Shown piece by piece: positions 7,145-63,514 of a DNA stretch of 64,000 nt (the stretch's first letter is position 1; each line of letters begins with the position of its first letter). The stretch spans positions 2,334,020-2,398,019 of the forward strand of contig NZ_CM001436.1 in NCBI RefSeq assembly GCF_000243255.1, written 5' to 3'. Under the pieces are notes generated by a model. That model did not search any database. It was given only the letters and a program-made list of their open reading frames with translations, and was not told the origin of the DNA. The translations under genes and the position numbers were made by a program. The stretch is from Methanoplanus limicola DSM 2279 (GTDB taxonomy: Archaea > Halobacteriota > Methanomicrobia > Methanomicrobiales > Methanomicrobiaceae).

Positions 7145-7486
7145 TCATTCTGATTCAGCTTCAGATCTGAGCTGGGCTATCTTCTCTGCCGGAAGTTCGG
7201 TCACTTTAATTATGGTCTCGTCATCCATTCCAAGTGAGATCATTTTTTTGGCGGCACTAATACCTTTCTTTATCTCTCCTATTTCCTCTCCTACCTCTAT
7301 TCCTTCTTCTCTTCCCTCTTCTCTTCCCTCTTCTCTTCCTCTCTCCTCAGCTGCATGCATCCTGAGATCAACCTCAATTATCTCGGTTATTCTCTCTTCA
7401 TATGCCCTTCTGCTCTCTTCATCTTCACTCATATCACGTAAGCGTTCATACGCCTTCGCGACTTTGGGTTCAGCTTCTGCGGCCAT
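7145..7486 (-). CDS. Stand-alone Rpn C-terminal fragment, copy C (113 aa)
   Basis: Only the last third of an Rpn gene is present. Similarity to copies B and D starts at about 7541 and runs to the stop; the nuclease core is gone. The internal ribosome site (GGAGG at 7495-7499) and the ATG at 7486 are preserved, so MAAEAEPKVAKAYERLRDM onwards can be made as a free protein. An ATG at 7522 (MFLNAATKEEL) is possible but has no ribosome site. It lies 149 bp downstream of intact copy D on the same strand, so both may be on one transcript. Either a decayed duplicate or a dedicated extra antitoxin gene. Confidence 0.55.
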   Translation of the reverse strand: MAAEAEPKVAKAYERLRDMSEDEESRRAYEERITEIIEVDLRMHAAEERGREEGREEGREEGIEVGEEIGEIKKGISAAKKMISLGMDDETIIKVTELPAEKIAQLRSEAESE

Positions 7487-7671
7487 TATTAATTCCTCCT
7501 TTGTTGCTGCATTAAGAAACATCAGCCACGGTATTTCCGGATTAATCTTATGTTATGCTTTCTGAAAAATCTGAGGGCCGGGTGGGGTATTGCTAGTATT
7601 GGGGGAGAAGAGATGTTTTAAAAAATATTGATTCCCGGCGAAAACTCAGGGTTAAGGTTAATTCCCGGTTC

Positions 7672-8043
7672 TCACTCAGATTCGTTTTTGGGTTCAGATT
7701 CAGCTTCAGATCTGAGCTGAGCTATTTTTTCTGCCGGAAGTTCGGTCACTTTAATTATGGTCTCGTCATCCATTCCAAGTGAGATCATTTTTTTGGCGGC
7801 ACTAATACCTTTCTTTATCTCTCCTATTTCCTCTCCTACCTCTATTCCTTCTTCTCTTCCCTCTTCTCTTCCCTCTTCTCTTCCCCTCTTTTCTCCTCTC
7901 TCCTCAGCTGCATGCATCCTGAGATCGACCTCGATTATCTCGGTTATTCTCTCTTCATATGCCCTTCTGCTCTCTTCATCTTCACTCATATCACGTAAGC
8001 GGTCATATGCCTTCGCGACTTTGGGTTCAGCTTCTGCGGCCAT
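7672..8043 (-). CDS. Predicted internal-start product of Rpn copy D (123 aa)
   Basis: In-frame ATG at Met200 with GGAGG at 8052-8056, as in copy B. Would give the charged tail alone. Predicted from the ribosome site and by analogy to E. coli Rpn small proteins. Confidence 0.5.
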   Translation of the reverse strand: MAAEAEPKVAKAYDRLRDMSEDEESRRAYEERITEIIEVDLRMHAAEERGEKRGREEGREEGREEGIEVGEEIGEIKKGISAAKKMISLGMDDETIIKVTELPAEKIAQLRSEAESEPKNESE

Positions 8044-8640
8044 TATTAATTCCTCCTTTGTTGCTGCATTAAGAAACATCAGCCACGGTATTTCCGGATC
8101 GTTCTTATGTTGTCTACCATCATACTTAAGTTTTGGCAGTTCAACAATGTGAACTTCCAAAACATCAGTTAATTCTATCTCATTCTTCCGGTCATAAAGC
8201 CTGAACATAGTATGCATAGGTTCAATCTCAAACAGGTTGTAATCGAGAATAACCAGGGAGATAGTCTTCTTAAGCAGGTGATAACCATCTCCGGCTGAGA
8301 TCTGTGATGAATACAGTCTTGAGAGATAATATAAGACTCTCTCCCGGATTGCCGGATGGTCAGTCAGCTGGATTTCAACATCAACCTGAACTCCGGAATC
8401 AAGAACAATCCGGATATCCAGTATCCCGGTCTTATCTCCGGAAACCTGCTTTAAGAGGAAGGGGTCTTTAATCTTTATGTCTTTGACCGGAATATGAAGC
8501 ATTGCCCTTAGAAAGGCTATTGTGATATCTTTATTCTTCTCATCGCCAAAGAGCAGCCGAAAGGCAAAGTCGTTCTTTGGAGACATGATGAAAGAACCGT
8601 CAGGCGTTGTAATTTCAGGGGGAAAATTGCGTCTTAACAT
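7672..8640 (-). CDS. Rpn-family PD-(D/E)XK nuclease/putative transposase, copy D
   Basis: Intact 322-residue copy, almost identical to copy B, with the same core residues (D75, E89, Q91). Differences cluster in the tail: three GREEG units in a row where copy B has one, and a different low-complexity end (ESEPKNESE in place of EPEPETESESESKSK). The tail repeat is a 12-bp CTTCTCTTCCCT-type tandem array, so tail length can change by slippage without loss of frame. The C-terminal-only copy C follows 149 bp downstream. Confidence 0.9.
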   Translation of the reverse strand: MLRRNFPPEITTPDGSFIMSPKNDFAFRLLFGDEKNKDITIAFLRAMLHIPVKDIKIKDPFLLKQVSGDKTGILDIRIVLDSGVQVDVEIQLTDHPAIRERVLYYLSRLYSSQISAGDGYHLLKKTISLVILDYNLFEIEPMHTMFRLYDRKNEIELTDVLEVHIVELPKLKYDGRQHKNDPEIPWLMFLNAATKEELIMAAEAEPKVAKAYDRLRDMSEDEESRRAYEERITEIIEVDLRMHAAEERGEKRGREEGREEGREEGIEVGEEIGEIKKGISAAKKMISLGMDDETIIKVTELPAEKIAQLRSEAESEPKNESE

Positions 8641-46345: not shown

Positions 46346-46957
46346 TTACAAAGAATTCAGAAATGAGATCAGCTCATCCACATTTGTGTATGGATTTACT
46401 GAAACAGAATGGAGATCCGGGCACTGATTCTCAGTTTCATGAAATTTTCTGAGCCTTTCTGCATTTTTTATCGCGTCTTTCTCTTTCAGCCTCAGAGAGT
46501 TATAGATATTATCAACATCCGGTTTATCATAATTTCTTTCATATTGTCTTAGTTTTTCGATAGGCTCCCGGCAGGCAAGATTATCCTGATAATACCGGTA
46601 ATGCAGGAGAAACCAGAATTCAAAGTCCGGGTTTGAGATGATGAGATTCATGTTTTCAGGCATTTTCTTCATTGCCGATTTAATATCCCCGTCTCTGGCA
46701 TCATCCAGATCCATAACCAGGAATACTTTATCATTTTTGTTCCTGTTATAGTCCCCTGCCTTTATATTCTGCTTCGCATAACTGACAAGATCTACCGCAG
46801 TTTTTCTGTTAGAATGTACTGCCTCAATTCTGATATTCCGGTTACCCCTGAGATCACCTTTTTTGAGCCTGAAGTAATTAATTTCCGTTTCTCCGCTTGA
46901 AAAGATCAGTATTAAAGGGTTTATCTGCCGTTTTTGGGATTTTCGAGTTCTTGTCAT
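46346..46957 (-). CDS. RloB-like protein
   Basis: 203 residues. RloB/AbiLii domain: LILIFSSGETEINYFRLKKG at the start (TOPRIM-like acidic motif SSGETE), VFLVMDLDDARDG, ISNPDFEFWFLLHYRYY and the C-terminal NPYTNVDELI. Partner of the RloA-like ATPase, two bases downstream of it. RloA/RloB (AbiL-type) pairs are linked to restriction loci and abortive infection; RloB is thought to be the nuclease. Confidence 0.85.
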   Translation of the reverse strand: MTRTRKSQKRQINPLILIFSSGETEINYFRLKKGDLRGNRNIRIEAVHSNRKTAVDLVSYAKQNIKAGDYNRNKNDKVFLVMDLDDARDGDIKSAMKKMPENMNLIISNPDFEFWFLLHYRYYQDNLACREPIEKLRQYERNYDKPDVDNIYNSLRLKEKDAIKNAERLRKFHETENQCPDLHSVSVNPYTNVDELISFLNSL

Positions 46958-46959
46958 CC

Positions 46960-48219
46960 CTAAATACTCCCGTAAAAGATATCCGGCAATCCTCCATAGC
47001 GTCCTGAGAGATATGCTTTCTCTACCGAACGATCAACCCGGTCTTCATAGTCAAAAAGGGAGTATAATTCAGTGTTCCTTTTCTCTTTGTTCTTCTCTGT
47101 AAACCAGATCTGTTCTCTTCTGAAGAAATCCTGTGAGAGTATCCTTGTATTATGGGTTGTGACGATCAGCTGTGAGTTTGCCTTATTATATTCCTCATCA
47201 TGAAATATTCTGAGCAGATACATGATAAGATCAGGATGAAGCCTTGTATCAAACTCATCCATCACAAGAATTCTCTGGTGACCTTCAAGGGCATCAAGAA
47301 ATACTCCAAGCATTTTAAAGAAGACAATGGTTCCTGCGGATTCAAATTCTTCAAATTCCGAAATGAATTCACTGCCATCATCTCGCCTGTGAATACTTTT
47401 AAGTTCGGTTTTTGAAAATTCTTCATCTTTCAAAGGCTTGTTTGTTTCTTTTTCAATGATATTTAATATGAAATCCGGAATTTCTGATCTATCCATTTTA
47501 ATCTTTTCACCGGATACATCTTCAATGTCAAAATCTGCATTTTTAAGAATATTTAAAACTCTCTTCTTATTTTCTTTTGATTTATTCATGTAGTCAATGA
47601 TGAGATCATCCCTGATTGCAGCAGTCTGTCCGATGTACTGAAGACTGACATTAAACCACTCAAAAACCTCACCAAACGGTTTGTATTCATTATTTGCCTT
47701 TGACAAAAAGAGTACATTGTCTCCGGTATGCTTAAATAGCCCCCTTAATTCATCTTCATCCACAGACACCTCAATCTGATCTCTTTTCCGGCAATAAACC
47801 CTGATTTCATTTTTATTTTTGAAATAACTCAGTTCCTCAGAGATAATCTCATCTGCATTGTATGAGAATGAATATTTATACTCCTTTTTTCCGCTGATAA
47901 AATCTATCTCAAAATATGTAGGCTCCTCATCATACCCACTGCTAAGCATGAACGGAAAATATGGCAGTTTATCCCCTTTATTGAGATTTTTAGACATTAA
48001 AACAATAAATTTGATGAGATCAAGTGCACGAATCTGGTTCGTCTTTCCGGATGCGTTGGCACCGTAAATAACTGAACTTTTCAGTAATTTTGTAATGCCG
48101 GGAATGCCTTTTATTTTGATTAAATTATGCTTTTTCTTTATCTCTTTTGAAGTCAGCATAGAAAGTGTCGTTTTCTCTGAAATGGAACGGAAATTTTCGA
48201 CACTGTACTCAATCAGCAT
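46960..48219 (-). CDS. RloA-like AAA ATPase
   Basis: About 419 residues from the ATG at 48219 (MLIEYSVENFRS); a 13-codon upstream extension would run into the operator hairpin at 48257. ATPase domain of the AAA_15 (SMC/OLD-like) type: Walker A VIYGANASGKTNQI, ABC-like signature region, Walker B RILVMDEFDTRLHPDLIMYL, and IVTTHNTRIL. Acts with RloB in the next gene. Diverges from the ATPase gene at 48435. Confidence 0.85.
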   Translation of the reverse strand: MLIEYSVENFRSISEKTTLSMLTSKEIKKKHNLIKIKGIPGITKLLKSSVIYGANASGKTNQIRALDLIKFIVLMSKNLNKGDKLPYFPFMLSSGYDEEPTYFEIDFISGKKEYKYSFSYNADEIISEELSYFKNKNEIRVYCRKRDQIEVSVDEDELRGLFKHTGDNVLFLSKANNEYKPFGEVFEWFNVSLQYIGQTAAIRDDLIIDYMNKSKENKKRVLNILKNADFDIEDVSGEKIKMDRSEIPDFILNIIEKETNKPLKDEEFSKTELKSIHRRDDGSEFISEFEEFESAGTIVFFKMLGVFLDALEGHQRILVMDEFDTRLHPDLIMYLLRIFHDEEYNKANSQLIVTTHNTRILSQDFFRREQIWFTEKNKEKRNTELYSLFDYEDRVDRSVEKAYLSGRYGGLPDIFYGSI

Positions 48220-48256
48220 GAATATTATAGTGCCCTGAGAGATAATATAATTTATC

Positions 48257-48279
48257 ATTCTACGAAAAAATCGTAGAAT
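48257..48279. promoter_or_regulatory. Perfect inverted repeat in the RloA/ATPase divergent region
   Basis: ATTCTACGA-AAAAA-TCGTAGAAT, 9-bp arms and 5-bp loop, 38 bp upstream of the RloA start. Candidate operator for the rlo operon; it could also affect the divergent ATPase operon, together with the TATA-like CGTATATAAATC near 48313. Confidence 0.55.
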
Positions 48280-48434: not shown

Positions 48435-49526
48435 ATGTACAAATCATTCGGGATTAAAAATTTCAGAGGCTTTAAAGAATTAAAAATAGAGGACTTAAAA
48501 CGCTTAAATCTGATTGCAGGGAAGAATAATGTTGGAAAAACTGCTGTACTTGAAGCCTTATTCATACACTGTGGCGTGCTGAATCCTGAGTTGGTACCTG
48601 TTGTAAATGCAATTAGAGGATATGACATTATTAAACTGAAGAACAGAGTTTCATCAACTGAAACTACCTGGGATTCGATATTTTATAACTACAATACATC
48701 CAACAAAATAGAACTTTCCGGAACTTATTCAGACAACCATCGAAGAATGCTGGAAATTTCAATCAAATCCAGCAGAAGAATAAACATCCCTGCTTCAATT
48801 AAAGAAGAGAATAACTCATACAATCAGATTCATACCAATTCATCAAATATAATGGATCAGTATTATCCTGCACTCGAATTAAAAAGTACTGAACCCAAAA
48901 AAAAGGAATTATCAAATGATATTGTGATATGGCCGGGTGGCATAAGTATAAAGCAGTCTTATAAACCCACAAATGTTAGTTATTTCCTCTCTTCAGGAAG
49001 AGTAACAAATCCCAAAGAAAATGCTGAATTATTGGGAGAACTTGAAATTAATCTTAAAAGTGAAGAGATAATACCAATAATGCAGATTATTGAACCAAAA
49101 CTTATTGCTCTCAATACCATTCCAATGGGTAACACTTCAGTAATTCATGCCAATATTGGTATCGGGAAACTGATTCCGGTATCTCTTCTTGGCGAAGGAA
49201 TTAATAAATTAATGGCCATAATAATCAGGATAATTAATGCTGAAAATTCCTGTATTTTTATTGACGAAATTGAAAATCGATTCCATTACTCAATAATGAA
49301 TAAGATTTGGGAAGTCATTGACAGTGTTTCAAAAAAATATAATGTACAGGTTTTTGCAACTACACACAGCCTGGAGTGCATTAAGGCTGCACATGAAACA
49401 CTGAGCAGCAGTGATTATGATTTTTCTTTAATCAGACTTGATAAAACCGATGATTCAATCATTCCGACATACTATGATTGTGAATCACTTGACATCTCAA
49501 TTGAGAATGAATTTGAGGTCAGGTAA
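48435..49526 (+). CDS. OLD-like ATPase (AAA_15/AAA_21)
   Basis: 363 residues. FGIKNFRGFKELKIEDLKRL at the start, Walker A LIAGKNNVGKTAVLEAL (about 27-43), a signature region VSLLGEGINKLMAI and Walker B SCIFIDEIENRFHYSI, then VFATTHSLECIKAA. It has no nuclease of its own. The next gene, three bases on, encodes a TOPRIM-like DUF3226 protein, so together they resemble a split OLD protein or the two-gene PARIS arrangement. Diverges from the RloAB operon. Confidence 0.85.
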   Translation: MYKSFGIKNFRGFKELKIEDLKRLNLIAGKNNVGKTAVLEALFIHCGVLNPELVPVVNAIRGYDIIKLKNRVSSTETTWDSIFYNYNTSNKIELSGTYSDNHRRMLEISIKSSRRINIPASIKEENNSYNQIHTNSSNIMDQYYPALELKSTEPKKKELSNDIVIWPGGISIKQSYKPTNVSYFLSSGRVTNPKENAELLGELEINLKSEEIIPIMQIIEPKLIALNTIPMGNTSVIHANIGIGKLIPVSLLGEGINKLMAIIIRIINAENSCIFIDEIENRFHYSIMNKIWEVIDSVSKKYNVQVFATTHSLECIKAAHETLSSSDYDFSLIRLDKTDDSIIPTYYDCESLDISIENEFEVR

Positions 49527-49529
49527 TTC

Positions 49530-50178
49530 ATGACTAACCGGATAACAAAGAAGATCATTCTCATTGTTGAAGGGTGCGATGAGAACCACTTTTTTAATGA
49601 ATTTTTCAGACATATTACAGATTCAGGAAAGAGTGACGGCATAGTTCCGGATGATATACAGATAATCCCCCTGCATGGTAAAGACAAACTGAAGAAGGAA
49701 TTAAAGGCCCTTTCAATGACAAGTGAATTTAAATCCGTTGAAAAAAATAGGTATCCTGCAGGATGCCGACAATGATCCCAAACTTGCATTTAATCAGATA
49801 GCTGAAACATTAAAAGAGCTAAAATTTACCCCGCCAAAAAAACAGATGTCATTATCCGGAGGAGATCCATCCTGGATAATTATTATAAATCCTATGGATA
49901 AACCGGGTATGCTCGAAGATTTAATAGTTGAGAGTTTTTCCGGAGATCATGCAATGAAATGTGTTGACTCATTTCATGAATGTGTTGGTAATAATGGAAA
50001 ATATAAGCCTAAAAATTATTCCAAAGCCTATTTGCAGACATATTTTTCGTCAAACAATAAATATATAAAAGACATCGGAGTTGCTGCCAAAGAGAGGATA
50101 CTTGATTTCGATCATGAAGCTTTTGGGAATTTCAGGACCCTGATTAAAATTCTTACGGACCAAAAAAGTAACCCATGA
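49530..50178 (+). pseudogene. DUF3226 TOPRIM-like partner, frameshifted at an A7 run
   Basis: The first frame (MTNRITKKIILIVEGCDENH, TOPRIM E in LIVEGCDE) ends at 49775. The second, from about 49748, gives IGILQDADNDPKLAFNQIAE with the DAD metal motif and continues to DQKSNP at 50178. Removing one A from the run AAAAAAA at 49741-49747 joins them as SVEK-IGILQDADND, a full DUF3226 protein of about 215 residues. Either inactivated, or expressed through slippage at the A7 run. Its last codons come from the dispersed hairpin repeat. Confidence 0.8.
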
Positions 50179-50309: not shown

Positions 50310-51080
50310 ATGACTGCCGGAAAGAGAAAAAAAGCGGTCCGTCCCGGGTTTCTCCTTTTACTGATAATATCTGTAGCAGTCGCTCTTCTTCTTATCTTCT
50401 CTTCAGCGTCCGGAATTTCACTTAGGGATAATATCTATCCCTCCATAACTCCTGAAGGCGATGACACTCCGGTAAATATTACAAACAGTTTCATATTCAG
50501 GGGGAAAATCTTTTCAGTAACAGTTCCGGTTGGAAATGATGTCCTTACAGGTGCAGTGAATGCACGAAAGGAGGCACAGATCTTTAAGAGATCTGAGATA
50601 ACCGATACTCTGAAGAAATATTATGCGGCCTTCATATTCGACCCGGCACAGGACTGCATGTATGACGAACTTTCTTCGGCCTTAAATGAGATAAAAGCCG
50701 CCGAAAACCTCTCAGATTCCTAATATGTCGATCTGATGGCTTCGTTTGTCCGGGCTATTCCGTACCGGGGAAATGCAACTGACAGAGGGGGCAGATTTCC
50801 GGCTGAAACCCTCGCTTACGGCGGCGACTGTGACAGCAAGAGTTCCCTTTTAATCGGAATGCTTGCACATGAAGGGTATAATGTTTCCATGCTGATGTTT
50901 CCAAAAGTCCGGCATACAGCAGTCGGGGTTGCTTCAGATGGTCCCGAATACAAAAATTCCGGCTATATATACATCGAAACAACCACAGTCTCACCTGCCG
51001 GATTTATACCCGATATTGTAAAAGATGCGGAGAGATTTTTGGTTATTCATTACGGGGACGGTGACAGGAGGTACCCGTAA
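50310..51080 (+). pseudogene. Transglutaminase-like membrane protein, copy 1 (nonsense mutation)
   Basis: Almost identical in DNA to the intact copy at 53031-53810. Codon 138 (GAA, Glu, in copy 2) is TAA at 50721-50723, giving a 137-residue product without the catalytic region. The downstream frame is open again to 51080 and keeps GGDCDSKSS and RHTAVGV. The last codons differ (DGDRRYP). Confidence 0.88.
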
Positions 51081-51510: not shown

Positions 51511-52845
51511 TCAAATTTTATAATTTGTACCTCTTCCTTTTCCACACTTCTTAAATAACTCAATTGAAACAAGTTCTCTAAGCTCTTTTTTTGCAATAGT
51601 AGTGGATACTGAATTTATTTCCTGATATATTCTATTGCTGATATCCCCATTTTCAATAACATATTCTACAGCCCGGAGCTGACGGGCGTTTAAATCTCTA
51701 TTTTTTATGAGGCTATCAAGATTGACAGACTTTCTGAAATAAGCTGAAAAACCGCCAAATTCTTCTTTAAATTCAGGTTCAGGTAGACCTGATTCAAAAA
51801 TAGCTTTACAAATTCTATTTATACCTGATCCCCACACCTCAATAAAACCAGATCTGTATATAACATCTGCAATTAGTGGGTTTCTTTGAACAGATGAATG
51901 TAACCTTTTCAAATCGTCAATACTAATTCCATCAGGAAGTCCTCCGGGATTATGAAACCAGATGAAATCATCAAAAATCTTAATTTGTGTCTGCCGGTTA
52001 GACATAAAATAATCCCGGTGAACCAGAGCATTTAAAAGTGCTTCCCTTATTGCATCAATTGGATAATCCCAAATTTCTTCCCGCTTAAATGAATCTCCGG
52101 TAATATTATATCGAATGTTAATAAAAGACAATATTGCCTCTTCAGCACCTTCAATCTGCCTGAAAAGATTCCCGTTTACGACTTTATCTCCAATAATTAT
52201 ATTTTCATCTTTAAAGTGACCAACTCTGACAATAGCATTTATAAAATATTTCCTGGGATTTTTACCAAAGAGAATTATTGCGCCATTTGTAAGTTTTCCA
52301 TTACAGATTAGACCTAAATGACTGAGTATATCATAAATATTTTCTTTAAATGCAGATTCGGGCATTCTCCCGGATTTAACAGACATTTTTACAAAATCAC
52401 CCACAGATCCAGGATCAATTTCATCAATGTCGTAATCTCCGGCAATACAGTCCCACTGACTTGAATTCAAAAAATAATTTCTCAGATCTTCAGATTGCAT
52501 TTCGCGTGTAGTGTTTCCAATTCTTTTATAATATCTACCTTCAAAAGAAACAGGGCATGAACTTTTGGCCACTTTAATTTTGAGAACTTCCTTGCCATTA
52601 ACTGAAAACGATTCTATTACCGGATGAATTAACAATTTATTGACGATATTGTCACTTATCTGCTTAAGGTTATCATTGGAACAATCAAAACCAATAACAT
52701 TTTTATCATCTGCTACACCAACAAGAACAGATCCTCCATCCGTATTTGAAAATGCACATAATGTTTTGTACATTCCCTTCACAACCGATTCTTTGAATTC
52801 AATCTGCTGGTTCTCAGTACCCAATAAAATTTCTTCAACTCTCAT
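51511..52845 (-). CDS. AlbA_2 (Schlafen-like) domain ATP-binding regulator
   Basis: 444 residues. AlbA_2/SLFN domain: TENQQIEFKESVVKGMYKTL, AFSNTDGGSVLVGVADDKNV (about 8-50) and YYKRIGNTTREM. A GHKL-like ATP-binding part follows: AIREALLNALVHRDY, FDDFIWFHNPGGLPDGIS, NPLIADVIYRSGFIEVWGSG and GLPEPEF. The C-terminal winged helix (ISNRIYQEINSVSTTIAKKE) binds DNA. Earlier called RecG-like helicases, these are regulators or defence proteins. Located between two transglutaminase-gene copies. The chimeric gene at 26268 has the same C-terminal half. Confidence 0.88.
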   Translation of the reverse strand: MRVEEILLGTENQQIEFKESVVKGMYKTLCAFSNTDGGSVLVGVADDKNVIGFDCSNDNLKQISDNIVNKLLIHPVIESFSVNGKEVLKIKVAKSSCPVSFEGRYYKRIGNTTREMQSEDLRNYFLNSSQWDCIAGDYDIDEIDPGSVGDFVKMSVKSGRMPESAFKENIYDILSHLGLICNGKLTNGAIILFGKNPRKYFINAIVRVGHFKDENIIIGDKVVNGNLFRQIEGAEEAILSFINIRYNITGDSFKREEIWDYPIDAIREALLNALVHRDYFMSNRQTQIKIFDDFIWFHNPGGLPDGISIDDLKRLHSSVQRNPLIADVIYRSGFIEVWGSGINRICKAIFESGLPEPEFKEEFGGFSAYFRKSVNLDSLIKNRDLNARQLRAVEYVIENGDISNRIYQEINSVSTTIAKKELRELVSIELFKKCGKGRGTNYKI

Positions 52846-53030: not shown

Positions 53031-53810
53031 ATGACTGCCGGAAAGAGAAAAAAAGCGGTCCGTCCCGGGTTTCTCCTTTTACTGATAATATCTGTAGCAG
53101 TCGCTCTTCTTCTTATCTTCTCTTCAGCGTCCGGAATTTCACTTAGGGATAATATCTATCCTTCCATAACTCCTGAAGGCGATGACACTCCGGTAAATAT
53201 TACAAACAGTTTCATATTCAGGGGGAAAATATTTTCAGTAACAGTTCCGGTTGGAAATGATGTCCTTACAGGTGCAGTGAATGCACGAAAGGAGGCACAG
53301 ATCTTTAAGAGAACTGAGATAACCGATACTCTCAGAGAATATTATGCGGCCTTCATATTCGACCCGGCACAGGACGGCATGTATGACGAACTTTCTTCGG
53401 CCTTAAATGAGATAAAAGCCGCTGAAAATCTTTCAGACTCAGAATATGTCGATCTGATGGCTTCGTTTGTCCGGGCTATTCCGTACCGGGGAAATGCAAC
53501 TGACAGAGGGGGCAGATTTCCGGCTGAAACCCTCGCTTACGGCGGCGACTGTGACAGCAAGAGTTCCCTTTTAATCGGAATGCTTGCACATGAAGGGTAT
53601 AATGTTTCCATGCTGATGTTTCCAAAAGTCCGGCATACAGCAGTCGGGGTTGCTTCAGATGGTCCCGAATACAAAAATTCCGGCTATATATACATCGAAA
53701 CAACCACAGTCTCACCTGCCGGATTTATACCCGATATTGTAAAAGATGCAGAGAGATTTTTGGTTATTCATTACGGGGACGGTGGTAAGAGTTATTTAAC
53801 GGATAATTAA
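53031..53810 (+). CDS. Transglutaminase-like membrane-anchored protein, copy 2 (intact)
   Basis: 259 residues. Basic start (MTAGKRKKAVRPG), one membrane helix (about 13-30) and an extracytoplasmic domain. The transglutaminase-like triad is suggested by C174 in YGGDCDSKSSLL, H202 in KVRHTAVGV and an acidic residue in YIYIETT. Related proteins are cysteine proteases or cross-linkers of archaeal surface proteins; the substrate is unknown. A nonsense-mutated copy lies at 50310 and a 3' fragment at 54691. Start: same ATG in both copies. Confidence 0.8.
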   Translation: MTAGKRKKAVRPGFLLLLIISVAVALLLIFSSASGISLRDNIYPSITPEGDDTPVNITNSFIFRGKIFSVTVPVGNDVLTGAVNARKEAQIFKRTEITDTLREYYAAFIFDPAQDGMYDELSSALNEIKAAENLSDSEYVDLMASFVRAIPYRGNATDRGGRFPAETLAYGGDCDSKSSLLIGMLAHEGYNVSMLMFPKVRHTAVGVASDGPEYKNSGYIYIETTTVSPAGFIPDIVKDAERFLVIHYGDGGKSYLTDN

Positions 53811-55860: not shown

Positions 55861-56027
55861 CGGAATAGTCAGCGAAGTCAGATAATTAATGATACATATT
55901 CTGTTTTCGATGACCTCAAGTTATTTTGTCGGAATAGTCAGCGAAGTCAGATAATTAATGATACATATCCTGTTTTCGATGACCTCAAGTTATTTTGTCG
56001 GAATAGTCAGCGAAGTCAGATAATTAA
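55861..56027. repeat. 69-bp tandem repeat, 2.4 units
   Basis: Units start at 55861, 55930 and 55999 (CGGAATAGTCAGCGAAGTCA), identical apart from one or two bases. Bounded by the 14-bp direct repeat ATGAGACGTTGATT. A frame through it is only the repeat translated and is not a gene. Confidence 0.9.
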
Positions 56028-56189: not shown

Positions 56190-56540
56190 TTATTTCTCCC
56201 ACTTATCCCTGCTGCTTACCGGACGTTCAAGTATCTCATATCCGGACTCAAATTCACGCTCGACATCTCCGAGATACTGATCAACCCTCTGGCGTCTCTC
56301 TGCCCACTCGTTCACTGAGGAGTGTTCGATCATGTCAATCTCGACACATGCCTGGCTTTTCAGACTTTCAAGATTAACAAACCATGACTCAAGCTCTTTG
56401 CATACATCTTCAGAGACATCTTTCATTCTCGTTTTGATGTCCTTTTCCATACCGTTAACATCTTTAACACGTGCGATTGCCTGATCAAGGAATTGTCGCT
56501 GAGATTCACTTAATTTATGTCCCTTATCTGTTTCTGCCAT
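56190..56540 (-). CDS. Hypothetical coiled-coil protein, 116 aa
   Basis: Soluble and strongly helical: LSESQRQFLDQAIARVKDVN, KDIKTRMKDVSEDVCKELES, VNEWAERRQRVDQYLGDVER. Charge pattern of a long coiled coil. No known family. Convergent-divergent neighbours are the EFR1 gene and the helicase. Confidence 0.7.
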   Translation of the reverse strand: MAETDKGHKLSESQRQFLDQAIARVKDVNGMEKDIKTRMKDVSEDVCKELESWFVNLESLKSQACVEIDMIEHSSVNEWAERRQRVDQYLGDVEREFESGYEILERPVSSRDKWEK

Positions 56541-56687: not shown

Positions 56688-59600
56688 ATGCAGCTCTCAA
56701 ATGGAATCTATGAACAAGTAATTAATGAGTATATCTCCGGCAAACTAAAATTACTTGATGAATCATGGAAGCCAGAGAAAGATAAGATTGACATCGAAGA
56801 TTCAAAGGCAATTCTTGCGAATTATCTATCATTAATAATCAGAAGAGCACTTGGCCATATTAAAGAAAAAAACCGGAGTATTGAAGATCAGATCGCCGCA
56901 TGCAACCACATAATACATTACCTCTCCGAAATTTCCGGTGAGGGATCTATAAATGAATGCCATATTGGAGAAGAAGCTGAGATACTCCTCTCCTTATATG
57001 ACAAAGTAAATTTTCCGGAGATTACATCCAGATCAATTATCCGGCCGGAGACCTCAATTGCCCAGAGCAGCCTTTTTACAGGTGCTGCGATAGAGCCGAG
57101 TATGGCAGGAGAACTAAAAAAAGAGATCCTCTCATCTGACAGAATTGAGATTCTGGTCTCTTTTATTAAATGGGGTGGCATCCGTATAATTGCAGATGAA
57201 TTGCAGGAATTTTCAAATTCCGGCAAAAAAATCCGGATAATTACCACTTCGTACATGGGTGCAACAGATTACAAGGCGGTTGAATTTTTAGAAGGTCTTG
57301 CAAACTGTGAGGTCAAAATCTCATATGATACAAAAAGAACAAGACTGCATGCAAAATCATATACTTTTTACAGGGACAATGGTTTTTCAACAAGCTATAT
57401 CGGTTCATCCAATCTCTCAAACCCGGCAATTACAAGCGGACTTGAATGGAATGTGAAGATTACAGAGAAAGATAATTTTGACCTTTTAGAGAAAGTTAAG
57501 GCAACTTTTGAGACATATTGGAATGACTCTGAGTTTATAACTTTCAGGCCGGAAGATTCTGTCATCTTAAAAGAAGCCCTAAAACTTGAGAAGGGTGAAA
57601 TTCCGGGTGACAAAACTCTCTGTGCCTTTGAGATTAAACCTTATTATTACCAGAAGGAGATCTTAGAGAAGCTTAAATCCGAAAGAGAAATTCACAAAAG
57701 TTTCAAAAACCTCATCGTTGCAGCAACAGGTACAGGAAAGACGGTCATATCTGCTTTTGACTATAAGGATTTTTATAAATCGAAGTTCAACACCGGGAAT
57801 TACCCCAAACTCTTATTTGTTGCACACAGAGAAGAGATACTTAAACAGAGCCTTTACACATTCAGGGGGATTTTAAGGGATCAGAATTTCGGAAATCTTC
57901 TTGTAGGCAGCCATGAGCCGGACTCACTGGATCATCTGTTCATTTCTGTTCAGAGTTTTAACAGCCGGAATTTATGGGAATATACGAAGCCGGATTATTA
58001 TGATATGATCATTGTTGATGAGTTTCATCATGCCGCTGCACCGTCATACAATAAACTGCTCTCATACTATAATCCTAAAATTCTGGTAGGCCTTACGGCA
58101 ACTCCTGAGAGAATGGATAACTTAGATATTCTGGAGTATTTTGACGGGAAGATTGCTGCCGAAATAAGACTTGCTGAAGCAATCGACAGAAAATTACTCT
58201 CTCCCTTCCACTATTTCGGAGTGACAGATATTGTCGATCCCGATTCTGTTAAATGGAGTCGTGGAGGTTATGACAGAAATGAGCTCTCAAAGGTTTATAC
58301 AGGAAATACAGAGAGGGCGTATCATATTGCAGATTCTATTCAAAAATATGTTACCGAGATTTCCGGTGTTGCCGGACTTGGATTTTGTGTGAGTATTGAG
58401 CATGCAATATTCATGGCTGAGACATTTAATAAGCTGGGGATTAGATCAGCAGCCCTTCATTCAAAGAGCAGCAGGGAAGAGAGAGATTTAATTCAGGGAA
58501 AGCTTACAAAAAGAGAGATAAACTTCATCTTTGTCATTGATCTCTATAATGAGGGTGTTGATATCCCTGAAATTGATACCGTCCTCTTTTTACGGCCGAC
58601 TGAGAGTATTACAGTATTTCTTCAGCAGCTTGGAAGGGGGCTCAGGCTGCATGAGGATAAGGAGTGTTTAACAGTGCTTGATTTTGTTGGCCGGCAGAAT
58701 GAGCACTATCGGTTTGGGGATAAACTTTCATCAATTCTTGAAGTGTCAGCTTGTTCTGTAATGAATCAAATCAAGACCGGAAATTTCATGCTTCCGAGAG
58801 GTTGCCATATACATCTTGAAAAAGTTGCAATGGATAAGATACTTGAAAATATAAGAGCCAATCTCAATAATAAGAGAAATCTGACAAACCTTATTAGAAA
58901 TTTTGAATCTGATTCAGGACTGACGCTTAATCTTAAAAATTTCCTTGATTATCATGCCATAAATCCGGCGGATCTCTATTCAGCCGCCACTTTTACTGAA
59001 CTATGCAAAAATGCCGGATTTTTAACCCATTGTGCCATTACTAAAGATGACGAATTTACAGTGCATAATAAACTCCTGAAAGATGCTGTTTACAGGTTGA
59101 TAACCGTTAATTCAGTCAGTTTAATTGGAGAGATCATCAGGCTTCTCAAAAATCCGGATGAGCTGCCTGAATTTACCAGGTCCTCCTATGGCAGGAAAGT
59201 CATCTCAGTTCTTTATTATTCGGCATATAATGCTCCGGTCTTGGATGAACCTGATTCTGAGAGAATCTTTTCCGGAATTTTTGATAATGAATGGATTAGA
59301 GATGAAATTATCAGTGCCCTTGAATATGTTACAGGAAAGATAAATTTCATAGAAAAACCGCTTGATTTGGGATTTAATACCCCACTTAAGCTTCACTGCA
59401 CATATTCAAGGGATCAGATTTTCGCCGGACTTGGATATTATACTCCAAATGAAAAACCACCCAGAGGATCACGTGAGGGCGTTGTGCATTTCAGGGAGAA
59501 AAATCTGGATGTATTCTTTATAACTCTCAATAAGACTGAGAAATATTTCTCTCCATCGACCATGTATGAAGATTATGCTGTTAATGAGAGGCTCTTTCAC

Positions 59601-59852
59601 TGGCAGTCCCAGAGCACGACTTCAGAGAATTCCAAAACCGGAAAGAGATACATGAACCAAAAAGAAAATTCCGGCAAGGTCCTCCTTTTCGCAAGGGAGT
59701 CCAAAAAAATTCAGGGCAGAACAAGACCATACCTATGCCTTGGAACGGCAGAATATGTAAGTCACACCGGCAGCCGGCCAATGAATATAATCTGGAGACT
59801 TGATGAGGAGATGCCGGCAGGATTTTTAAAGGTTGCCATGAAGATGACGTGA
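56688..59852 (+). CDS. PLD-nuclease/SF2 helicase with DUF3427
   Basis: 1054 residues. N-terminal about 120 residues are helical. Phospholipase D-like domain at about 125-265: HAKSYTFYRDNGFSTSYIGS with SNLS (HxK at 221-223; N in SSN). SF2 helicase: Walker A VAATGTGKTVI (about 344-354), DExH box IIVDEFHHAAAPSY, VGLTATPERMD, VIDLYNEGVDIPEID and QQLGRGLRL. C-terminal DUF3427. Such PLD-helicase proteins are anti-phage nuclease-helicases. Stand-alone here, intact, followed by a gap of about 560 bp. Confidence 0.92.
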   Translation: MQLSNGIYEQVINEYISGKLKLLDESWKPEKDKIDIEDSKAILANYLSLIIRRALGHIKEKNRSIEDQIAACNHIIHYLSEISGEGSINECHIGEEAEILLSLYDKVNFPEITSRSIIRPETSIAQSSLFTGAAIEPSMAGELKKEILSSDRIEILVSFIKWGGIRIIADELQEFSNSGKKIRIITTSYMGATDYKAVEFLEGLANCEVKISYDTKRTRLHAKSYTFYRDNGFSTSYIGSSNLSNPAITSGLEWNVKITEKDNFDLLEKVKATFETYWNDSEFITFRPEDSVILKEALKLEKGEIPGDKTLCAFEIKPYYYQKEILEKLKSEREIHKSFKNLIVAATGTGKTVISAFDYKDFYKSKFNTGNYPKLLFVAHREEILKQSLYTFRGILRDQNFGNLLVGSHEPDSLDHLFISVQSFNSRNLWEYTKPDYYDMIIVDEFHHAAAPSYNKLLSYYNPKILVGLTATPERMDNLDILEYFDGKIAAEIRLAEAIDRKLLSPFHYFGVTDIVDPDSVKWSRGGYDRNELSKVYTGNTERAYHIADSIQKYVTEISGVAGLGFCVSIEHAIFMAETFNKLGIRSAALHSKSSREERDLIQGKLTKREINFIFVIDLYNEGVDIPEIDTVLFLRPTESITVFLQQLGRGLRLHEDKECLTVLDFVGRQNEHYRFGDKLSSILEVSACSVMNQIKTGNFMLPRGCHIHLEKVAMDKILENIRANLNNKRNLTNLIRNFESDSGLTLNLKNFLDYHAINPADLYSAATFTELCKNAGFLTHCAITKDDEFTVHNKLLKDAVYRLITVNSVSLIGEIIRLLKNPDELPEFTRSSYGRKVISVLYYSAYNAPVLDEPDSERIFSGIFDNEWIRDEIISALEYVTGKINFIEKPLDLGFNTPLKLHCTYSRDQIFAGLGYYTPNEKPPRGSREGVVHFREKNLDVFFITLNKTEKYFSPSTMYEDYAVNERLFHWQSQSTTSENSKTGKRYMNQKENSGKVLLFARESKKIQGRTRPYLCLGTAEYVSHTGSRPMNIIWRLDEEMPAGFLKVAMKMT

Positions 59853-60415: not shown

Positions 60416-60709
60416 ATGCATTCAAAAATATGTGACGCAATAAAAACCAAAAATCAGATAAAAATTATTTATGATGGACAAACAAGGATTATTAATCCAC
60501 ATTTAATTGGAATACATCATAAATCTGGAAAAAAGACATTAAGAGCATATCAAGTTGGTGGACACAGCAATTCAGGAAAAATACCAGACTGGAGAATGTA
60601 TTCTATTGACAAAATCAGCAGTGTTTCTCATTTAGATAATTCTTTTGAAATTAATCAAGGTTATAATCCAAATGACAGTCATATGTCATCAATCATATGT
60701 AGAGTATAG
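60416..60709 (+). CDS. Small WYL-domain protein, 97 aa
   Basis: A lone WYL domain without the usual HTH: KNQIKIIYDGQTRIINPHLI, GIHHKSGKKTLRAYQVGGHS, GKIPDWRMYSIDKISSVSHL. WYL domains sense nucleic-acid or nucleotide ligands and control or complete many defence systems. Located 32 bp upstream of the OLD gene, same strand, so probably the first gene of a three-gene operon. Start at 60416 with an A/G-rich ribosome region. Confidence 0.75.
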   Translation: MHSKICDAIKTKNQIKIIYDGQTRIINPHLIGIHHKSGKKTLRAYQVGGHSNSGKIPDWRMYSIDKISSVSHLDNSFEINQGYNPNDSHMSSIICRV

Positions 60710-60741
60710 TTAACCAGACAATACTTATTCAAACCATTTTT

Positions 60742-62652
60742 ATGAAGATCAAATCAATTTCCGTTTGCAATTATAAATGTCATCGCATAATAGAAAATCT
60801 ACCATTTCATGAATTTACAACATTAATAGGTGAGAATGATTCAGGAAAAACTGCAATCATTGATTTCCTGGAAATAATGCTTACAAACGCAATTCCAAAA
60901 TTTGAGGACTATTATAGATATCTTGCTCTAGATCCACAAAGTGGACATGATCATGAAGTTACAGCGGAAGACATTTCAGGTGAGGTCATCTTCATCGTTG
61001 ATGAAGATGAAATTATGGACATTCCAGATTATCTAGATGAAAACGGCTGTTTCAGGCTGAAAAAAGAATTTACTTCTGAAGATAATCATACATATCTATA
61101 CACTCAGAGATATTCAGATGAACGGTTTTACAATTACAAAAAGATGAATGCCAATGATCTTGGGGTTTTTGTTGAAGAGTTAAGATTATCTCCAAAAGAA
61201 GGAACCAAGTTTAACAATCAGGATGAGAGAAAAACCGCAGTAAAAGATTACATTCAAATCAAGTCCCAAGAAATTCCTTCTAGCTTGGATTGGCATGAAA
61301 TAAATTTCAAGGATATTCAAAATTTCCTTCCAAAGCTTATTCGCTATAATGTAGATGATTACAACAATCCCGAAAATCTTATCTTCAAAGTGCTGAAAGA
61401 ATCCTTTGAGGATGAACTTTATTGTAAAGACCAAAATGGAATTAAAAAGCTGAGAGATCAAAAAATTCAGGATGCAATGGATCGTGCAAAAGAGAGGTTA
61501 AACGAAGAGTCCGGGCAATTCCTAAAACATCTCCAGAAATTTAATCGGAGGATCGATTCAATCAGCATTGAGCCTGAGATTGATCTTACTTCCGGTCTGA
61601 AACAGACTCCTGTAAAAATCAAAGAAAAATACGAACCTTATCAATATCTGAATAACAAAGGTTACGGAACTAAAAGAAGGATGTATCTTGCAATATTTGA
61701 ATGGAATAAGGAAGTTCTCTCAGGGATTGATCAGGATTATGCAATACGGTGTTATGATGAACCCGACAATAATCTACATATTGAAGCTCAGAGAAGCTTA
61801 TTCAGGACCCTTAGATCAGTAGTTGATGATTCCAAAGGGAAAAATCAGGTAATCCTATGTACCCATTCACTCTTTATGATAGATTCTGTATCCTCTTCCT
61901 CAATAAACCTACTGAGGAATTGCCATGGAAGTACTGAAATAGATTATTTAAAATCAGATGATGACCCTACAATTCAGGAGTTTATTTCTCTGATGTGTAG
62001 GGAAATGGGACTTTCAAATAGCCATCTCTTCTTTGAGAAGTGCTTCATTATTATTGAAGGACCTACTGAATCAAATTTTATTCCTCAGGCATACAGAAAA
62101 CTATATAATTCTTCTATGGCAGAAGATGGAATTACACTTATTGAACTTGGTGGAAACGGAGCCGCTCTGAATTTCTTAAAACTTCTAATGAAAAATAAGA
62201 GTGACCTAATAATCCTATTCCTTGACAACGATACTAAAAGAATCAGAAGGGAGAAATTGCTCACTGATGATATGATTTCTTCTTCAGGAATGACAGAAAG
62301 CGATTACAGGATGTCTGTCGATAATTTTTTTAAGGAGAGGTTAATTTATATTGGAGAGAAGGAATTTGAGGATACATTTTCCAATGAAGTAATATTAAGC
62401 GTTTTAAACAGATATAGGCCAAAAAAGGATGAAAAATTGTGGATTGATGAAGATATACGGAAGATGCGAGAGAAGAACAAATTTTCAGATGAAATAATTT
62501 CATGTGTAGCAAAAGAATGTAAACCAAACTATCTTAATAAACCTGAACTTGGAACTTTTCTTGCTTCTTTAATTGAAAAGGAAGATATTCCACAGACTGT
62601 AAAAGATCTTTTTAGTAAAGCCAGAGATATTTCAGGTGTAGAATTTTTGTAG
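60742..62652 (+). CDS. OLD-family ATPase/TOPRIM nuclease
   Basis: 636 residues. SMC-like ATPase with Walker A LIGENDSGKTAII (GENDSGKT at 30-37), a long central helical insertion, and Walker B/D-loop YDEPDNNLHIEAQ (about 339), then VILCTHSLFMID. C-terminal TOPRIM with IIIEGPTESNFI (E about 437), LGGNGAALN and ILFLDND (about 492). Same architecture as GajA and Class 1 OLD nucleases, but no UvrD-like GajB is nearby; instead a WYL protein precedes and a 106-residue unknown follows. Unlike its neighbours it is poor in TCCGGA words, suggesting recent acquisition. Confidence 0.9.
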   Translation: MKIKSISVCNYKCHRIIENLPFHEFTTLIGENDSGKTAIIDFLEIMLTNAIPKFEDYYRYLALDPQSGHDHEVTAEDISGEVIFIVDEDEIMDIPDYLDENGCFRLKKEFTSEDNHTYLYTQRYSDERFYNYKKMNANDLGVFVEELRLSPKEGTKFNNQDERKTAVKDYIQIKSQEIPSSLDWHEINFKDIQNFLPKLIRYNVDDYNNPENLIFKVLKESFEDELYCKDQNGIKKLRDQKIQDAMDRAKERLNEESGQFLKHLQKFNRRIDSISIEPEIDLTSGLKQTPVKIKEKYEPYQYLNNKGYGTKRRMYLAIFEWNKEVLSGIDQDYAIRCYDEPDNNLHIEAQRSLFRTLRSVVDDSKGKNQVILCTHSLFMIDSVSSSSINLLRNCHGSTEIDYLKSDDDPTIQEFISLMCREMGLSNSHLFFEKCFIIIEGPTESNFIPQAYRKLYNSSMAEDGITLIELGGNGAALNFLKLLMKNKSDLIILFLDNDTKRIRREKLLTDDMISSSGMTESDYRMSVDNFFKERLIYIGEKEFEDTFSNEVILSVLNRYRPKKDEKLWIDEDIRKMREKNKFSDEIISCVAKECKPNYLNKPELGTFLASLIEKEDIPQTVKDLFSKARDISGVEFL

Positions 62653-62658
62653 AAAATT

Positions 62659-62979
62659 ATGGATGTAACAGGCTGTTCAAATGGTTCTCCTGACATCAAA
62701 ACTGGTTCAGGATATGGAATCAGAATCAAATCAAAGGATCGTGATCTATTTTTCCAGAAAGAATGGAACTCTGTTGAGGTTATAATCGATAGTGAAAAGT
62801 TTATTGAAGTTTCGATCTCAAAATCTTTTTGGAATACTTGTATTGAACTAAAAAGTAAGGAGATCGGCAGGTGGATGCTTGATAATAATCATGCACCATG
62901 GCCGAAATATAAGACTCCTAAATTTAAGCTGGAGCCTTCAGAAAACCGAAGATTTATACTTACAAATAATCAGAAATAG
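62659..62979 (+). CDS. Hypothetical protein downstream of the OLD gene, 106 aa
   Basis: MDVTGCSNGSPDIKTGSGYG opens a mixed alpha/beta protein: GIRIKSKDRDLFFQKEWNSV, ISKSFWNTCIELKSKEIGRW, MLDNNHAPWPK, EPSENRRFIL. No family recognised. Six bases after the OLD stop, so almost certainly co-transcribed. Could bind nucleic acid (basic, aromatic) or be the partner of the OLD ATPase. Confidence 0.7.
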   Translation: MDVTGCSNGSPDIKTGSGYGIRIKSKDRDLFFQKEWNSVEVIIDSEKFIEVSISKSFWNTCIELKSKEIGRWMLDNNHAPWPKYKTPKFKLEPSENRRFILTNNQK

Positions 62980-63082: not shown

Positions 63083-63514
63083 TCACGCGACATAGACGAC
63101 CTCACTCATCACATCGTCACGGATATGTGGGTTTAAACCGTCATATGTGACAAGGTCAACACTTCTCTCAAAGATGGATTCAGGATAGAATTTAAGTTCC
63201 ATATAATTGTCAAAAGTCTTTTCTCCTTCCCTGAATTCAACAAATACATCAACATCACTCTTTGGGGTATCTGTTCCCCTGGCACATGAGCCGAATATGC
63301 CAATCCTTAATACCCCGAATTTTTGAAATATTTCAGCCTCATATTTTATCAGGAGGTTAATTGGTGATGTTATGTGTGACAGTGCAGATGACATGGTGTG
63401 TGGTATAGTTGTAGCATTCAGTGGGTTATCATTATTACCATTATTCTCTGATGTTTTCAGGTTATCTAATGAGCCAGTTTTTTCTGTTGATTTTGAATTA
63501 TATGATGTATTCAT
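63083..63514 (-). CDS. MNT-type nucleotidyltransferase (solitary)
   Basis: 143 residues. After about 55 residues of Asn/Ser/Thr-rich tail comes the minimal nucleotidyltransferase domain: FGVLRIGIFGSCARGTDTPK, SDVDVFVEFREGEKTFDNYM (GSxARGTxxxxSDxDxxV), RSVDLVTYDGLNP. Ends EVVYVA, typical of MNT antitoxins. No HEPN gene is next to it in the window. Start at 63514 gives the long tail; a later ATG (63394, shortly before the domain) is possible. Confidence 0.82.
   Translation of the reverse strand: MNTSYNSKSTEKTGSLDNLKTSENNGNNDNPLNATTIPHTMSSALSHITSPINLLIKYEAEIFQKFGVLRIGIFGSCARGTDTPKSDVDVFVEFREGEKTFDNYMELKFYPESIFERSVDLVTYDGLNPHIRDDVMSEVVYVA

Follow-up and report, generated by a model that had tools for sequence, protein, structure and literature searches.

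The defence hotspot

The window that we analysed is a stretch of 64,000 nucleotides from Methanoplanus limicola DSM 2279. Towards its right end lie three genes, coding for a solo WYL-domain protein, an ATPase–nuclease of the OLD family and a small protein that we call S106. They are preceded by a type IV restriction enzyme gene, and the whole is enclosed by two flanking genes:

56190–56540, minus strand: 116-aa sll1863-like protein, left flank of the hotspot (61% identical in the congener G120)
56688–59852, plus strand: PLD-helicase type IV methyl-directed restriction enzyme, mREase_IV (PADLOC model PDLC03659, E = 4e-220)
60416–60709, plus strand: solo WYL-domain protein, 97 aa, no HTH (open reading frame; AlphaFold, Foldseek and VIA-align)
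60742–62652, plus strand: OLD-family ABC ATPase–TOPRIM nuclease, 636 aa (PF13175, PF20469; residues in alignment A4)
62659–62979, plus strand: S106, a member of a family of small proteins, 106 aa (homologues, neighbours, alignment A5 and tree)
63083–63514, minus strand: MntA-like nucleotidyltransferase, right flank of the hotspot (82% identical in G120)

The open reading frames, order, strand and spacing reported in a preliminary description of this DNA match the sequence exactly: all three genes are on the plus strand, with gaps of 32 bp (WYL to OLD) and 6 bp (OLD to S106). The restriction enzyme, 563 bp upstream, is a separate unit in the same hotspot.

The genome of the congener G120 follows that of the window as far as about 56.45 kb, and resumes the match at 63.08 kb. 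Between these common flanks (L161, L162), in place of the window's type IV restriction enzyme and WYL-OLD-S106 genes, G120 contains about 28 kb of DISARM/Mza-type cargo with genes for Vsr, DrmMII, MzaB/C/E, DrmD, DrmA, DrmB and a NERD-helicase. The flanks are conserved and the defence genes between them are exchanged: this is a defence hotspot, which makes both a defence role and horizontal acquisition likely. Acquisition by transfer had been proposed from a shortage of TCCGGA words, and the cargo swap supports it. TCCGGA is 8.5-fold over-represented in the window (124 copies observed, 14.6 expected from dinucleotide shuffles), and there are zero copies between positions 59271 and 63638, so the region is indeed poor in this word. 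Part of the deficit, however, follows from the lower G+C content of the operon (33%, compared with 40% for the window). As sole evidence of transfer the deficit is weak, and we replaced it by the hotspot comparison with G120.

Other features of the window lie to the left of the hotspot. A second OLD-type defence unit, consisting of an AbiLii-like and AbiLi-like pair at 46346–48258 on the minus strand (the ATPase matches the PADLOC AbiLi model with E = 1e-86), is located 12 kb upstream of the operon. It is adjoined by a third ABC-ATPase defence pair at 48435–50178 on the plus strand, an AbiLi/PDC-M38A ATPase followed by a PDC-M38B-like protein. Near-identical gene copies at 50310–51080 and 53031–53810, one of them split into two open reading frames, flank a gene for a 444-aa protein (51511–52845) that matches PADLOC Argonaute-associated models with E-values of about 1e-21. 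The window also has direct repeats of at least 300 bp with 78–100% identity (4–303, 1292–1591, 7333–7632 and 7890–8189), and a 69-bp tandem repeat in intergenic DNA at 55861–56027 (2.4 copies, 98% match).

The OLD nuclease and the solo WYL protein

The OLD protein has an N-terminal ABC ATPase (PF13175, E = 1e-51, residues 1–380) and a C-terminal OLD-type TOPRIM domain (PF20469, E = 2e-10, residues 430–497) in one chain, with both matches above the cut-off. Its ATPase motifs are a Walker A motif GENDSGKT at residues 30–37, a Walker B motif YDEPD at 338–342 (D339/E340) and an H-loop THS at 374–376 (H375), and its TOPRIM motifs are ExxxE (E439/E443) and DxD (D495/D497). The key residues are invariant in an alignment (A4) of the window's protein with relatives that are 62% and 27% identical to it. 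When placed by eye on the published active sites of the Bp and Ts OLD proteins (PMC7049728, PMC6755086), E541/E543 correspond to metal-B residues and K600 to the putative catalytic lysine; their spacing resembles, again by eye, that of T506/E508 and K562 in B. pseudomallei OLD. Judged by its motifs, the nuclease is intact. The E541/E543–K600 spacing also suggests that there is a C-terminal helical domain, a usual feature of OLDs outside class 1 (PMC6755086, PMC7049728, PMC12796447).

We compared the protein and its setting with each kind of OLD system. Its relative in PDB by sequence is T. scotoductus OLD (TsOLD, 6P74), and like the class 1 proteins P2 Old and TsOLD it goes without a helicase, a reverse transcriptase (RT) or a split nuclease. 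However, class 1 OLDs are by description isolated single genes, whereas the window's gene has neighbours 32 and 6 bp away. The 636-aa protein also seems, from the spacing, to have a C-terminal helical domain, which is missing in TsOLD. With class 2 (Gabija GajA) it shares the one-chain ABC ATPase and TOPRIM architecture, matches to GajA models with E-values down to 4e-30, and the spacing of the Bp class 2 active site, as matched by eye (ExxxE, DxD, ExE about 45 residues later, then Lys). The Gabija partner is GajB, a UvrD/PcrA/Rep-like helicase; the window has a solo WYL protein instead, and the UvrD helicase gene gajB is absent from the locus, where the neighbours code for WYL, S106, the type IV restriction enzyme and the MntA-like protein. 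Class 3 OLDs (retron I-B) also have an ATPase–TOPRIM chain, and one relative of the window's OLD is located beside an RT gene, but there is no RT among the scanned neighbours in the window and an Rfam search of 54–64 kb gave no match. That relative (L044:334-3712, in a frame-broken Clostridiaceae MAG) is 45% identical to the window's OLD and has a weakly WYL-like small gene upstream. It is a possible retron, hinting that the OLD lineage of the window may also serve retrons.

The ATPase half resembles PARIS/AbiL in that its best PADLOC match is the AriA model (E = 4e-65, residues 1–380, over a 373-position AAA_15 region), followed by Old (2e-31) and GajA (4e-30). In PARIS the ATPase and the nuclease are on separate genes (AriA/AriB), whereas here they are fused and the TOPRIM domain is of OLD type. 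We rejected PARIS membership, since the AriA model covers the Pfam AAA_15 region and the window's nuclease is fused. The archaeal class 5 OLD, Cran1, is similarly an archaeal protein with an adjacent partner gene, but Cran1 is essential in Sulfolobales, is located next to a membrane-protein gene, is vertically inherited, and serves the cell cycle and not defence (PMC12796447). The window's OLD, unlike Cran1, is probably not vertically inherited; it sits in a variable hotspot, its partner is WYL, and a close homologue is present in just 2 of 232 genomes of the class. By its sequence, the protein is an OLD-family member, but its setting is outside the defining context of each of classes 1 to 5; the literature also describes at least 11 OLD clades that are uncharacterised (PMC12796447). 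The operon sits in a hotspot and has no adjacent GajB, RT or AriB gene; the earlier view, of a possible defence unit whose OLD protein has none of the known partners, is supported.

The WYL protein is only weakly recognisable from its sequence (Pfam E = 0.036, which is under the cut-off, and PADLOC 8e-5), so the assignment needed proof by a structure model. The AlphaFold model, made from eight sequences, has a pLDDT of 93. Its best PDB matches by VIA-align are the WYL domains of PafBC (Z 11.6), ssDNA-bound DriD (10.9), BrxR (10.9) and ssDNA-bound CapW (10.4), and Sm and Hfq proteins score lower (Z 7–9). The predicted structure confirms the WYL assignment, an Sm-like SH3 barrel of the WYL type. 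Its 97 residues comprise the barrel only, and the DNA-binding HTH seen in BrxR, CapW and PafBC is absent, so it is not a classical repressor and BrxR-type repression is ruled out. Its proposed role as a ligand sensor is retained, as a probable one. BrxR, CapW and WYL1 of type VI-D CRISPR, the last a non-transcriptional accessory, are likewise WYL folds located next to defence genes; the window's protein differs from them in having no HTH, no C-terminal extension domain, and an OLD nuclease as its partner.

In an alignment of eight solo WYL proteins (A6), W59 is invariant, and R24, R43 and Q46 vary little if at all. ssDNA is a ligand of the PafBC and DriD WYL domains, and in PafB its binding requires two WYL arginines (PMC11804915). 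Aligned by eye, the PafB pair falls on positions 63 and 66, both of which differ among the members of A6. The arginine pair is thus apparently not conserved in solo WYLs, and the ligand may differ.

WYL and KTSC neighbours of OLD genes

We surveyed the neighbours of 80 OLD relatives drawn from 85,000 species genomes. A solo WYL gene is located within 200 bp of the OLD gene at nine of the 80 loci, co-directional at eight and convergent at one (L062). It is upstream of OLD at L043, L050, L081 and L113, and downstream at L094, L102 (Thermoanaerobacter wiegelii), L108 and L120. The loci span Methanomicrobiales, Bacteroidota, Cyanobacteriota, Actinomycetota, Chloroflexota and Thermoanaerobacter, as well as Candidatus Pyrohabitans (L108). 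On the Deinococcus plasmid pDrdII, the WYL and OLD genes overlap and are followed by a PD-(D/E)XK-like gene. Among the 232 genomes of the class, the two with a close OLD homologue are the window's own and HGW-Methanomicrobiales-6 (G054), and both have WYL directly upstream; a solo WYL is present in only four genomes of the class. Given this rarity, the repeated occurrence of WYL next to OLD in several phyla exceeds what chance would give.

At 12 other loci of the 80, near kin included, a solo KTSC gene occupies WYL's place. For example, a lone KTSC (PF13619) is 3–18 bp upstream of OLD at L046, L049 and L051; at L048 it is divergent from OLD and overlaps it, and at L087, L088, L093, L100, L104, L105, L116 and L118 it is adjacent. 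KTSC likewise adjoins OLD on a Haloferax plasmid. For defence gene pairs, KTSC domains have been described as DNA-binding (PMC9503650). WYL and KTSC were never found together at one OLD locus among those surveyed, and 59 of the 80 relatives have neither. In the window's own OLD clade (10 members, SH-aLRT 96), four members have WYL, four have KTSC, one has neither and one is on a contig that ends before the upstream region–that is, WYL or KTSC is present in eight of the nine members with visible upstream DNA. The presence of WYL on the OLD tree takes at least seven changes, which indicates that WYL was recruited or kept repeatedly. WYL and OLD are the core, recurrent pair, and the alternation of WYL with KTSC is a broader pattern that the preliminary description did not contain. 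A literature search found no published description of OLD with WYL or KTSC. Viral contigs gave no homologues of WYL and one distant match to OLD.

WYL and OLD could instead be independent neighbours, brought together by island clustering alone. The locus is after all a defence hotspot, and solo WYL genes are found with many other partners. Clustering would scatter the matches, however, whereas 21 of the 23 WYL or KTSC matches within 3 kb of OLD genes directly abut OLD, across several phyla and often overlapping it or a few base pairs apart. This argues against mere island clustering, which we consider very unlikely.

Another explanation is that the solo WYL or KTSC protein is antitoxin-like or autoregulatory and holds a toxic OLD off, in an addiction-like arrangement, and is not an activating sensor. 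OLD can be toxic (P2 OLD kills recBC cells; PMC7049728), and the small gene is often directly upstream of OLD, as in many antitoxins. But WYL is without the DNA-binding HTH and is downstream or convergent at several loci, and we regard this explanation as unlikely. We prefer to see the solo WYL protein as a sensor for the nuclease. Solo WYL genes also accompany other ABC-class ATPases, which fits a plug-in sensor: in Aliarcobacter a solo WYL occurs with SbcD-SbcC and an AAA_13 protein, in two halophile genomes (L147:6305-11070 and L148:3669-10898) it is divergent from Mre11-Rad50-like genes that we recognised by eye, and in family members it occurs with a PDC-S46 ATPase. L148 also has an OLD-like gene nearby.

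S106 and a model for the module

S106 has no match in Pfam, NCBIfam, PADLOC, PDB, plasmids, phages or viral contigs, and profile–profile comparison detects no similarity between it and WYL. An AlphaFold model made from two sequences has a pLDDT of 54. The protein is present in 10 of 232 genomes of the class and in 10 of 393 genomes sampled from the phylum, in varied company: its gene overlaps the end of an SNF2/NO-VEIN helicase gene with a methyltransferase near (L135, L139), is 64 bp after HsdM (L137), comes after the gene of a type IIG-like enzyme (L136), forms a fusion with a further domain (L138), or stands alone.

The three genes had been proposed to form a dedicated defence operon, with WYL as the sensor and S106 as the effector or inhibitor. 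This proposal is in keeping with the 6-bp gap between OLD and S106, and with the location of S106 downstream of OLD in the window and in G054, which have the only two close OLD relatives of the class. Against it, S106 elsewhere is alone or beside restriction-modification and helicase genes without OLD, and it is found at no other of the 80 OLD loci. A search for S106 neighbours, suggested as a check, yielded only one other OLD-linked copy, that of G054, and this is a genus-local paralogue: it is 71–82% identical to genus paralogues located away from OLD, but only 47% identical to the window's S106, and it nests among the genus-specific paralogues in the tree. The link between S106 and OLD probably arose more than once. 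We find a dedicated three-gene operon quite unlikely, and a dedicated role of S106 as effector or inhibitor of OLD is not supported; it is simpler to regard the OLD nuclease as the effector. The varied neighbours of S106 and the nesting of the G054 copy point to a promiscuous companion of DNA-defence operons, apparently an undescribed family that is accessory and not OLD-specific. As for co-occurrence, the WYL and OLD part of the operon recurs in many phyla, but all three genes are together in just one other genome, HGW-Methanomicrobiales-6, where a 341-aa gene is inserted. The third genes of the Deinococcus plasmid and G054 have no mutual similarity, so there is no common third component.

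On balance, we lean towards the view that a solo WYL protein and an OLD nuclease form a mobile antiviral module of two genes, to which the promiscuous S106 is attached at this locus. OLD would be the effector, a TOPRIM nuclease that cuts DNA (or possibly tRNA/RNA) under the control of its ABC ATPase. Infection would give rise to a nucleic acid or nucleotide that the Sm-like WYL barrel binds as a signal; by analogy with DriD, PafBC and CapW, our best guess is ssDNA. WYL would then contact OLD, and either recruit it to viral DNA or lift an ATP-gated block. In sister OLDs, the solo KTSC protein would do WYL's job. We infer the physical WYL–OLD complex, its ligand, its target and its defence activity. 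Counting against the module are the 59 of 80 OLD relatives with neither WYL nor KTSC, the apparent lack of the PafB arginine pair in solo WYLs, and the cell-cycle role of the archaeal OLD Cran1.

A wider scheme seems possible to us, and we offer it tentatively. In it, a solo WYL or KTSC protein is an obligate, interchangeable nucleic-acid-sensing subunit that defines an undescribed class of OLD, solo WYL is a general plug-in sensor used also by Mre11-Rad50-like and other ABC-ATPase defence machines, and S106 is a second, independent plug-in for type I restriction-modification, SNF2/NO-VEIN helicase and OLD operons.

How OLD nucleases with neither GajB nor a retron are triggered is unsettled in the field, and a sensor-like partner that is small, recurrent and interchangeable would make the trigger directly testable with two short genes. 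If the module is real, some of the OLD genes now counted as stand-alone class 1 would be two-component systems, and one small barrel domain would have been reused to arm several ABC-ATPase nucleases.
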